Part shown: in pieces, positions 23,800-38,733 of the stretch
Layout of the letters: each line of letters opens with the position of its first letter
How positions within the stretch are numbered: the stretch's first letter is position 1
Source: Pseudobdellovibrionaceae bacterium
GTDB taxonomy: Bacteria > Bdellovibrionota > Bdellovibrionia > Bdellovibrionales > UBA1609
Length of the DNA stretch: 64,000 nt
Assembly: GCA_018663505.1 (NCBI GenBank)
Contig: JABJQG010000014.1
Location: 1 to 64,000, forward strand
Direction of reading: 5' to 3'
Made by a program: the position numbers and the translations under genes
Notes under the pieces: generated by a model
Told to the model about the DNA's origin: nothing
What the model saw: only the letters and a program-made list of their open reading frames with translations
Databases searched by the model: none

Positions 23800-24531
23800 T
23801 GCACGCACTGACTTTTGGTAGCTATTGTGCGTTAACCGGAACTCCGGACGCTCATTTCGCATAATTCTGTGTTAGGCATGGCAAGATTATTGCAAATCTG
23901 ACGTTCATGCCTAGAAAAAAGTTAATTTATTCAAATTTATATCCTTACCATATATTTGCCCGGTCCAATAATAAGGACTGTTTCTATATTGACAAAGATC
24001 AGCTATGGAGGATGTTTCAAGAACAATTTTTTGAGTTAAACTTTAAGTTTAATTTCCAAGTTCATGCTTTTGTACTTATGGATAATCACTACCACTTAAT
24101 TGCCTCATGCTCACAAGAGCATGACCTTGGGTTTATAATGCATAAGCTTCAAGGCAGAATTAGTTTGAAAGTAAATAAAAAAACAAAACGTATGAATCAT
24201 TTTTGAGGCGGCCTATCTTCATGCATGTATGAAGTATGTAATTCGGAATCCTGTTGTTGCAGGTATGTGTGAGAAAATTGAGAAATACGATTATAGTGTT
24301 AATAGCTTAGATAAATTATGTAATAATTTTCCTTTAAGTAGTCATGTATTTCAACGTTCAATAATTAAGGAGAATACGAATTTAAATAGTTGGTTAAATA
24401 CACCTCAAGAATCTGAAGAGTACAAAAAGTCTAAGTTGGCTGCTACAAAGACAGTCTTTCAGTGGCGCAATCGGAAAAATAGAAGAGCAGGAGGGTGACG
24501 CGGTATTGCTACCAAAAGTCGGTCCGTACCC
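23799..24531. mobile_element. RAYT-type transposase element with imperfect terminal inverted repeats, decayed
   Basis: A 13-bp perfect inverted repeat (GACTTTTGGTAGC at 23810-23822, reversed at 24508-24520) lies outside both ends of a broken Y1 transposase gene. Similarity extends imperfectly to about 34 bp per end. A small palindrome (CCGGAACTCCGG) lies between the left end and the gene. This fits a REP-associated tyrosine transposase unit. An 8-bp direct repeat AGTGCACG lies at the junction with the lipase stop. The transposase is frameshifted, so the unit should not be self-mobile. Confidence 0.65.
23907..24498 (+). pseudogene. REP-associated tyrosine transposase (Y1_Tnp), frameshifted
   Basis: The first part (23907-24206) has the family start MPRKKLIYSNLYPYHIFARSNNK and the HUH motif in FVLMDNHYHLI. 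The frame then stops at NHF-TGA. The next part in another frame reads EAAYLHACMKYVIRNPVVAGMC, the conserved region normally about ten residues further on, and runs to 24498. So a frameshift plus a small deletion near 24200 broke the gene. Intact members act in single-strand transposition or upkeep of REP palindromes. The remnant is between lipase and small secreted genes. Confidence 0.8.
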
Positions 24532-28488: not shown

Positions 28489-29571
28489 TTATAGTAACTC
28501 AAGAAGATCCTTGAGCTTTTCAGCGAGTAACTGTTTGGTATCTCCAAACATCATATCAATTGATTGGCGTGTACGCACATTGCCAAGCTTTTCTGTAATC
28601 TCTCTAGTTGAATATTCCTTTCCATCTATAAACCCGTAATGAAGAAGGTATGCCTCTCTCTGCCAGTCATATGCTAACACCTTTAGGCTTTTTATAACGG
28701 TTTCTCTCATAATTTGAGCATCTAAAGTTTCATCAGGGGGCTTGTAAGCAGTGGACTCTATATTTTCGAAGATGTCAGAGCTTTTTCCATCATCATTTTT
28801 CACTTGATTATCTACATTTTGTTGTTGAGATAATTTGATTTCCTCCACATGTTCTACCGTAAACCAATGTGCATCTTTGTAGCTAAGGGGGTTTACCTCT
28901 GTGGCATAATTGGACAGTTGAATAAAGCTGGGTTTGGAATGAAACTCATTATAATAAGCTCGCTCAATCTTCTTTAATCTTGCAACCTTGTCCATAAATA
29001 CTCTGCCGGTACTTTTAGTGAGGGTAGAGAGAGGTAGTTCTCTCGATAGAGTTTTTAAAACAGAGCTCACTGCGTAAGTGCTAAATTGTACATAGCCTTT
29101 AATATATGAAGATTTGAAATTCGGTTTGTATCCTCGCACGGCTTTTCGCAGAATATCACGAGCTAAGGAAAAAACCTCCTCTATCTCATAATTTGACTTC
29201 CAATATTTCAAAGATGGTTTAATTGTAAGCCTTAAAGTGCCTTGCCAGATCATATTTTCTAGTTCAATAAATTGCTTTATAAGGGGAGAGGGTAAGTTGG
29301 TAAAATTTATTTTACTCAATTTATCTTCTCCAGCTTCTTGCAAGACCTTGGTTTTAAGGTCTTGGTAAACTAAAAAAAAATCACGGAGCTCTTTAGGAGA
29401 AAGCTTAGGGGTACTTTGGTAGCTATTGATGATCAGCTGTAAGTTTGTGGCTTCTGTAGAAAGAGTTTTTTTTTGGTTGGTAAAATATGTGGCACATAGG
29501 TTCTTTGCCTGAAGGAACTCAGGAGTAGTAAGGACGACGAATAAATATAATAAGACTTGTTTTGAGCTCAC
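28489..29571 (-). CDS. Sigma-70-like protein with an N-terminal signal peptide
   Basis: The 360-aa product carries recognisable sigma-70 domains. Region 2 is at about residues 125-185 (EIEEVFSLARDILRKAVRGY, then FSTYAVSSVLKTLSREL). A region-3-like helix has KPSFIQLSNY. Region 4 (about 295-355) reads WQREAYLLHYGFIDGKEYS, TREITEKLG, RTRQSIDMM. The N-terminus is unlike a sigma factor: a hydrophobic segment (QVLLYLFVVLTTPEFLQA, residues 5-22) with an A-type cleavage site, then KNLC26ATYF. GTG 29571 is the only possible start, since an in-frame stop lies just upstream. The C-x-x-Y-F motif occurs in three other secreted proteins here. It may be exported, or membrane-tethered and released later. Confidence 0.75.
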   Translation of the reverse strand: MSSKQVLLYLFVVLTTPEFLQAKNLCATYFTNQKKTLSTEATNLQLIINSYQSTPKLSPKELRDFFLVYQDLKTKVLQEAGEDKLSKINFTNLPSPLIKQFIELENMIWQGTLRLTIKPSLKYWKSNYEIEEVFSLARDILRKAVRGYKPNFKSSYIKGYVQFSTYAVSSVLKTLSRELPLSTLTKSTGRVFMDKVARLKKIERAYYNEFHSKPSFIQLSNYATEVNPLSYKDAHWFTVEHVEEIKLSQQQNVDNQVKNDDGKSSDIFENIESTAYKPPDETLDAQIMRETVIKSLKVLAYDWQREAYLLHYGFIDGKEYSTREITEKLGNVRTRQSIDMMFGDTKQLLAEKLKDLLELL

Positions 29572-29758
29572 CTTATTAAATTAACATAATATTAAGAGTC
29601 TAAGGCTCTTCAATTTGGAAAATGTAAATTTTCTAAGTCTGTATAGTTTATGTACAAGATTGCATCTGTTCTTTAATTTATTGCTAAAGCGGCTAAAGCT
29701 AACTCATAAATCTATCTATTTTACTACTCACTTGCACGGCCATAGAAAAAGAAAAGGG

Positions 29759-37515: not shown

Positions 37516-38733
37516 ATGCTTATTATGAGGGACATTAGGCGCAAATTAAGTGGTGTACGCTATTTCTGGCGAAGACTTAGACTGGTATTAGCAATATTTG
37601 TCACTTTGTCATCTCCTCTGTATGTAACTGCTAAAGATCAGTGCCGTCGCGTTTTTGCCCACATTAAACTTAATCAGCCGAGTTTACTTCAGCAGTGTGG
37701 TGGCAGCTGTTATCTTGAGGCCACAGTAAGAAGTTTGCAGAGTATTATTAGGAAGTCTTTAGGTAAACAAGTCTATATTTCTCGGGAGTACTTCGTTCTA
37801 CAGGTATTAATAGTTAGGCTTGAGTCAATTTCTGACCAATTTAAACTTAAAGAGATAAATCCTCAAGGTGATAGTAAAATGGGTCCCTTAGATTACTTAA
37901 GTAACGAAGCTGAATCCTTGAAGTTGTTATCCGAAAAATCAAATAAAAGAGGGTTGCAATACGACGCCAAAAAAATTAACTCAAAAATTATAGTGAGTGG
38001 TGGATTGGAGAGTCTACTAGATCATCTTTATGGGTTAAAGCCATTATTGAAAGACAGTATGTCTCCAGCTCAGGTGTATAAAGAATCAAGGGAAATGAAT
38101 AAACATCTAGATTATGTAGAGCTTAGATTAAATAGTTTAAAGAGTGCGTTGCGTAAACTTGAACATTCAAGCGAGACTTCTTTAGAGATTATTAACAAAG
38201 AGAAACTATTGGTGAATGAACATTTAAAAGAAACATTAGTTTACATACATAATAAATTATTAAAACTTGAACAAAATAATTTTTTTAAAAAGGGCCCTTA
38301 TTATCAACAGTTTAACACAAAAACTTATTCCATAAAATTTGAACCAAAATCCCTTGGTACAGAAGATTTAATCCTTGATCAGTCCTTTGAAAATTTAGTT
38401 AAAAAATCAGTAAGGGATAAAGTAGATATATACTTAACCTACTTAAGCGTTGTTGAGTACTTGGTGCGACATGGAAAATACAAAGGACACCTGGTGTTGC
38501 CAAAAGATAAAAGTCAATTCTTTGATAAGGACACATATGCTAATAAAAATAATGCGTATCATGCTGTCGTTATCGTGGGTTATCAATTACACGAAAATGG
38601 ACGTATTAAAAATTTAAAACTTAGAACATCTTGGGGGGCGTCTAGAGTGTCTCACTCGGAAAAAGTCATTACTATGCCTTTGGACTATTTGTTAGAGTAT
38701 GGCCTTGAATACATAACAGTAGAGTTGCCATAA
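37516..38733 (+). CDS. Secreted papain-like (C1) cysteine protease, catalytic Asn replaced
   Basis: The 405-aa product has a long arginine-rich signal peptide (to VTA, residue 39), then C43-R-R-V-F, a variant of the C-x-x-Y-F motif seen after other signal peptides here. A papain active site is visible: Q59 six residues before the nucleophile C65 in QQCGGSCYLEA, the histidine H349 in NNAYHAVVIVGY, and the closing RTSWGAS. In papain that last motif is NSWG; here Thr371 stands where the catalytic Asn is expected. About 250 helical residues separate Cys and His, as an insert. No strong ribosome binding site; an ATG at 37525 is possible. Confidence 0.7.
   Translation: MLIMRDIRRKLSGVRYFWRRLRLVLAIFVTLSSPLYVTAKDQCRRVFAHIKLNQPSLLQQCGGSCYLEATVRSLQSIIRKSLGKQVYISREYFVLQVLIVRLESISDQFKLKEINPQGDSKMGPLDYLSNEAESLKLLSEKSNKRGLQYDAKKINSKIIVSGGLESLLDHLYGLKPLLKDSMSPAQVYKESREMNKHLDYVELRLNSLKSALRKLEHSSETSLEIINKEKLLVNEHLKETLVYIHNKLLKLEQNNFFKKGPYYQQFNTKTYSIKFEPKSLGTEDLILDQSFENLVKKSVRDKVDIYLTYLSVVEYLVRHGKYKGHLVLPKDKSQFFDKDTYANKNNAYHAVVIVGYQLHENGRIKNLKLRTSWGASRVSHSEKVITMPLDYLLEYGLEYITVELP

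Follow-up and report, generated by a model that had tools for sequence, protein, structure and literature searches.

Sigma-70-like proteins with predicted signal peptides in the Bdellovibrionota, candidate effectors on transcription in other cells

We describe a heterogeneous class of sigma-70-like proteins that carry predicted N-terminal signal peptides, comprising 12 proteins in 10 genomes of four families of the phylum Bdellovibrionota. One member is encoded in a 64,000-nucleotide stretch of a Pseudobdellovibrionaceae genome (the window), and we refer to it as the focal protein. The most likely reading, to which we assign a probability of about 0.5, is that these proteins are effectors acting on the RNA polymerase or promoters of another cell, with the focal protein as a degenerate member of the class.

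The focal reading frame

The features of the focal gene are listed below by window coordinates and strand.

28489..29571, (-): signal-peptide sigma-70-like open reading frame, 360 aa, GTG start (ORF check, codon usage, homology)
29506..29571, (-): putative Sec signal peptide, residues 1-22 (MSSKQVLLYLFVVLTTPEFLQA; rule-based n/h/c analysis)
29482..29496, (-): CATYF, residues 26-30, a Cys motif right after the predicted cleavage site, tentatively resembling C-x-x-[SAYGV]-[FLM]
29317..29319, (-): in-frame TTG85, preceded at 8 nt by GGAG, where translation of a cytosolic form might begin
29586..29613, (-): promoter-like TTGAAG-N16-TATTAT with a leader of ~8 nt before GTG1; sites of this kind are about as common here as expected by chance
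29032..29241, (-): sigma region 2-like segment, residues 111-180 (HMM alignment, residue tables)
29071..29085, (-): FSTYA, residues 163-167, region 2.3, kept (sequence, HMM alignment, residue table)
29062..29067, (-): SS, residues 169-170, replacing W433-W434 (residue tables)
28549..28611, (-): degenerate region 4.2 helix-turn-helix, residues 321-341 (HMM alignment reaching residue 334)

As a preliminary description had it, the frame begins at GTG 29571; it runs for 360 codons without a stop or frameshift, and an in-frame stop sits 4 codons upstream. The accompanying claim that this GTG is the only possible start holds for ATG, GTG and TTG before residue 77; TTG77, TTG85 and ATG107 lie in frame beyond that point, and internal starts of this kind had been listed there as evidence against an exported sigma factor. 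GTG1 has no Shine-Dalgarno sequence at normal spacing, which, together with the GGAG before TTG85, makes a shorter cytosolic form a live rival. Codon usage over codons 2-100 scores 0.196 bits per codon, compared with -0.38 and -0.55 in the other frames and 0.125-0.362 in other genes, indicating that the N-terminal part of the frame is truly coding.

The same-strand upstream neighbor is an MFS transporter gene, and SpoVG, tRNA-Gln and a TIGR02147-type regulator lie downstream. The focal gene is located left of zapA, a 5-formyltetrahydrofolate cyclo-ligase-like gene, an RNase Y-like gene and tyrS (names judged from sequence). In 20 relatives, zapA and the next gene were present, and the genes left of zapA were not found beside it. 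Among the neighboring genes examined, we found no anti-sigma factor or S2P-type protease. Elsewhere in the window, at 23907-24498 (+), two adjoining short ORFs look by eye like a frame-shifted REP-type transposase.

The first 22 residues contain all three parts of a Sec signal peptide, with a hydropathy like that of neighboring exported proteins. Rule-based analysis divides them into an n-region of charge +2 (MSSKQ), a 9-residue core of mean hydropathy 3.26 (VLLYLFVVL) and a final part (TTPEFLQA) that ends at a single cleavage candidate, after LQA and before KN, bearing out the hydrophobic segment and A-type cleavage site of the preliminary description. The best 19-residue hydropathy mean is only 1.07, so the N-terminus reads as signal-peptide-like rather than as a membrane span. 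An equally hydrophobic N-terminus arises by chance in 4.4% of stop-free stretches in the AT-rich window; the focal signal alone is therefore not compelling, and its recurrence in relatives is.

Homology to sigma-70 factors spans residues 109-335 (NCBIfam profiles TIGR02997, E 3.3e-10, and RpoD_Cterm, E 1.7e-9). RpoD/SigA models are the best profile matches and no other domain was found; these sigma matches fall below curated cut-offs, and a Pfam search of the protein gave no match. A profile built without the focal protein scored it at 40.9 bits, compared with at most 5.8 in 2000 shuffles, and tblastn linked it to cyanobacterial SigA-type sigma factors at E 3e-5. The alignment covers regions 2, 3 and the start of 4.2, giving homology to all three sigma-70 regions, with many hydrophobic positions kept and insertions inside conserved blocks. 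Residue tables agree with the earlier observation that FSTYA is kept and the WW pair replaced by SS; of the regions 2 and 4 assigned at that time, the sigma-70 homology stands, and region 4 is more degenerate than implied.

The residues through which a sigma factor works have largely changed. In E. coli numbering, transferred through the RpoD of this genome, the region 2.2 core-binding residues D403, Q406, E407, G408, N409 and M413 are replaced by E, S, L, A, R and R, and the -10 melting and recognition residues Y430, W433, W434, Q437 and T440 read Y, S, S, K and S. The region 4.2 contacts to the -35 element (R584, E585, R588, Q589) are not alignable; the profile alignment stops at residue 334. 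Given these losses, the focal copy probably does not function as a sigma factor, and the earlier proposal that it takes over RNA polymerase is weak, because both the core-binding and the -10 contacts are gone. We regard them as strong, not absolute, evidence against sigma function, since FliA likewise has no WW and some contact residues vary in working sigma factors. AlphaFold on the single sequence was useless (pLDDT 39); on a sigma alignment, which biases the result, it gave pLDDT 62 and pTM 0.41, and the Foldseek PDB matches of that model were sigma factors at TM ~0.3, weak support with the same bias. The structure prediction suggested in the preliminary description thus does not contradict a sigma fold, through a weak model itself based on a sigma alignment.

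Signal-peptide sigma-like proteins in related genomes

Orthologues with the same N-terminus had been proposed as a check. A search of 369 genomes of the phylum turned up no orthologue of the focal copy, nor did searches of the order, the GTDB genome contigs, the viral contigs and the phages, and those weak phylum matches that we inspected were due to chance. On its own, the focal protein would count as an orphan of divergent sequence whose N-terminus is plausibly a signal peptide, and newness rests on the class.

To sample the class, we read the weak or odd matches to TIGR02997 (E up to 1e-5) in 116 genomes, 40 of the same family and two further sets of 38, with rule-based signal calls in mostly draft genomes. 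Nine of the genomes with signal-peptide sigma-like proteins came from this survey, and the tenth, G135, from a homology search; L300 (G275) was excluded from the count for ambiguous starts. The members are as follows.

Family f1: the focal protein, L211 (G029), L212, L213, L214 (G006), L215 (G137), L216 (G013), L289 (G028), L296 (G135)
Other families: L249 (G046, f5), L302 (G277, f14), L304 (G359, f27)

The focal protein has the arrangement that defines the class, a predicted N-terminal signal peptide ahead of sigma homology, and the N-termini of the 11 relatives show, by the same rules, n-region charges of +1 to +4, a hydrophobic core and candidate cleavage sites. L249 and L296, from two families, are 32% identical over 359 aa and both keep the predicted signal, which is thus conserved in this one homologous pair. 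Among the inspected RpoD, RpoH and FliA proteins with complete N-termini, none had a convincing signal: apart from L304, two strong-scoring candidates passed the hydropathy threshold and were unconvincing by eye, L297 (an RpoD starting MSVIVAAFL) having no n-region and L287 owing its N-terminus probably to a frame extended upstream. The genomes also encode unusual sigma-like ORFs that lack a signal (L250, L251 and several ordinary FliA-type ones). The recurrence of signal peptides on distant sigma-like proteins strengthens the earlier idea of an exported sigma factor, with export as the predicted consequence of these N-termini.

The best candidate for a working exported sigma factor is L304:965-2503 (+), in which a predicted signal peptide precedes an RpoD-like sigma closest to RpoD/SigA-type models; all inspected residues of regions 2.2, 2.3, 2.4, 3.0 and 4.2 are kept except Y394 (Q), G411 (S), I587 (A) and V582 (L). 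The region 2.2 QEG and the region 4.2 ERxRQ are kept in L304, L289, L213 and L214, suggesting that some class members could bind an RNA polymerase. In two members, L215:1104-4355 (-) and L289:592-4965 (+), a predicted signal precedes an SF2 helicase joined to sigma regions 2 and 4 (for the G028 protein, the Pfam scan was done on its L218 fragment), and in L216:704-1459 (+) one precedes RNA polymerase alpha-CTD-like and sigma region 4-like parts. The two fusions and the alpha-CTD/region 4 protein point to transcription initiation as the common theme of the members. Related, apparently exported helicases are also encoded at L290 (G028) and at L291 and L292 (G029).

The class is not one recent family, since BLASTP detects no similarity between the focal protein and L213. 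L213 is nearest to RpoH-type models (E 8.5e-67), as is L211 by its best match, and the focal protein matches RpoD/SigA. Judged by BLASTP and best models, without a tree, sigma factors thus seem to have acquired signal peptides on more than one occasion in the phylum.

A second shared trait is tentative. The motif C-x-x-[SAYGV]-[FLM] follows the signal closely in several exported sigma-like proteins and helicases (window 29482-29496, L211, L216, L249, L289, L290) and in some other predicted exported proteins. It was set down before L249, L289, L290, L291 and L292 were examined, and four of these five fit; L289 to L292 are related helicases, so they are non-independent tests. Of the 148 exported proteins sampled in G000, only 7 have the strict form (against a mean of 1.6 in shuffled sequences, where 1 of 500 shuffles reached that number), and no enrichment was seen in the sampled loci of G137, G013, G029 and G006, so that we rejected it as a general export tag and treat it as a lead, not a result. 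In the focal protein's own genome, L232:7948-9123 (+) encodes a PLP-dependent enzyme (Pfam PALP, E 5e-68) with a predicted signal peptide and a CLHYF motif, so that a usually cytosolic enzyme family is apparently exported here. Two exported-type proteins of ~400 aa, at window 37516-38733 (+) and L233:16751-18016 (-), have two motifs in common close to their N-termini, C-x-x-[VL]-F and QQCGG[ST]CY, and one of them has a weak papain-like match.

The same genome holds other region 4-like proteins. On two separate contigs, L010:1210-2304 (-) and L012:1210-2304 (-) encode 364-aa proteins that are very similar to each other and weakly match sigma region 4; they may belong to a mobile or duplicated element. 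Considered as relatives of the focal protein, they showed no resemblance to it. A three-gene set, in which two small region 4-like proteins surround one of ~133 aa, is repeated at L022:1375-3016 (+) and L008:1240-2720 (+).

Effector and alternative readings

We infer that class proteins are exported from the producer by Sec and afterwards arrive in another cell, which could be bacterial prey or a host. There, the sigma, sigma-helicase and alpha-CTD/sigma-4 modules would bind the recipient's core RNA polymerase or promoters, and transcription would be redirected or blocked. Modules that face RNA polymerase and promoters would be pointless in the periplasm, which argues for effectors. It is plausible, and we put it forward tentatively, that bacteria of this phylum send sigma factors into other cells, among them one with almost all inspected RpoD-type contact residues preserved, helicase fusions and an alpha-CTD/sigma-4 protein, and so capture the RNA polymerase or promoters of those cells. 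The focal product would be Sec-exported, with a mature part descended from a sigma-70 factor, as a divergent, degenerate member of a class that apparently arose several times in the phylum; given its lost contacts, any activity it has would be that of a protein that interferes or has been repurposed, not of an initiating sigma. Several points weigh against this reading: a Sec signal leads only as far as the periplasm, and no system for carrying the protein on into a foreign cytoplasm was identified; the orphan status of the focal copy leaves no way to show selection on its signal; and that copy also has the 4.4% chance rate, a GTG1 without the Shine-Dalgarno sequence that TTG85 has, and lost core and -10 residues. 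In Bdellovibrio bacteriovorus, native Sec signal peptides suffice for reporter secretion and Bd0468-mCherry is secreted into the bdelloplast (PMC12622784).

A rather unlikely alternative is that the focal protein is exported and no longer serves transcription, its sigma helical fold having been recruited for an unrelated periplasmic or extracellular task. Such recruitment would fit the loss of Q406, E407, N409, M413, W433 and W434 alongside kept hydrophobic positions and insertions in conserved blocks; however, FSTYA and the overall sigma layout persist, and other members keep nucleic-acid- and core-binding residues that are hard to explain outside a cell containing RNA polymerase. It may hold for the focal copy even if other members are effectors. 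Alternatively, the N-terminal segment could anchor a sigma at the inner membrane face of the producer until a protease releases it, as is known for pro-sigmaK (PMC6242693) and for IutY, ECF52/53 and ECF36 (PMC8999054). Tethering would also keep the sigma factor in the company of RNA polymerase, without which it has no use. This tethering, also raised in the preliminary description, fits poorly and we consider it unlikely: many of the cores have too few residues to cross a membrane (9 in the focal protein), and the cores are followed by SPase I-type sites, the positive n-regions predict an N-in/C-out orientation that would place the sigma outside, the neighboring genes examined supply neither anti-sigma nor S2P-type protease, and the focal copy has lost its core-binding residues.

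Least probable, in our view, is a cytosolic sigma relic or decaying gene, with TTG85 as the true start or no function at all and an incidental hydrophobic N-terminus. The ribosome-binding GGAG before TTG85 and not GTG1, the 4.4% chance rate and the orphan status are on its side, but gene-like usage runs through residues 2-100, the frame is intact over its whole length, and signal peptides recur on sigma-like proteins of other genomes.

Comparison with known systems

Sigma factors have so far been treated as strictly internal, and in the open-access literature, to which our search extended, we found no secreted, exported or translocated sigma factor family. If effectors they are, a bacterium would act directly on another cell's transcription by sending it initiation factors; the class would represent a new effector type, provide concrete candidates for prey or host takeover in a probably predatory lineage, and perhaps yield tools with which to redirect RNA polymerase.

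Bdellovibrio Sec-secreted proteins such as Bd0468, probably of the same phylum, likewise use Sec signal peptides, and those described in the part of the source consulted include no sigma factor (PMC12622784). Membrane-held pro-sigmaK (PMC6242693) and IutY, ECF36 and ECF52/53 (PMC8999054) keep the sigma on the producer's side. Like the proteins here, Bacillus subtilis pro-sigmaK, the SpoIVFB substrate, has a membrane-associated N-terminal segment ahead of the sigma domain, but it stays in the mother cell and is freed into its cytoplasm, whereas the short SPase I-type signals of the class point outward. IutY and ECF36/48/52/53 also combine a sigma and a membrane segment in one polypeptide; they are ECF sigma factors with anti-sigma and transmembrane extensions, whereas our searches found no anti-sigma domain, several members resemble RpoD or RpoH, and the focal protein, with RpoD/SigA as best models, does not show the ECF36/IutY-type combination of ECF sigma, fused anti-sigma and transmembrane helices. 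With the RpoD/SigA groups 1-2 (TIGR02997, TIGR02393), the focal protein shares the region order 2, 3, 4, FSTYA and its best profile match, but it differs in its ~20% identity, far below curated cut-offs, its lost region 2.2/2.4 contacts, its degenerate region 4.2 and its added signal peptide. Phage sigma factors such as T4 gp55 are made inside the host from phage DNA and have no signal peptide, and what they have in common with the mode proposed here is a sigma that works on the RNA polymerase of a cell to which it is foreign.
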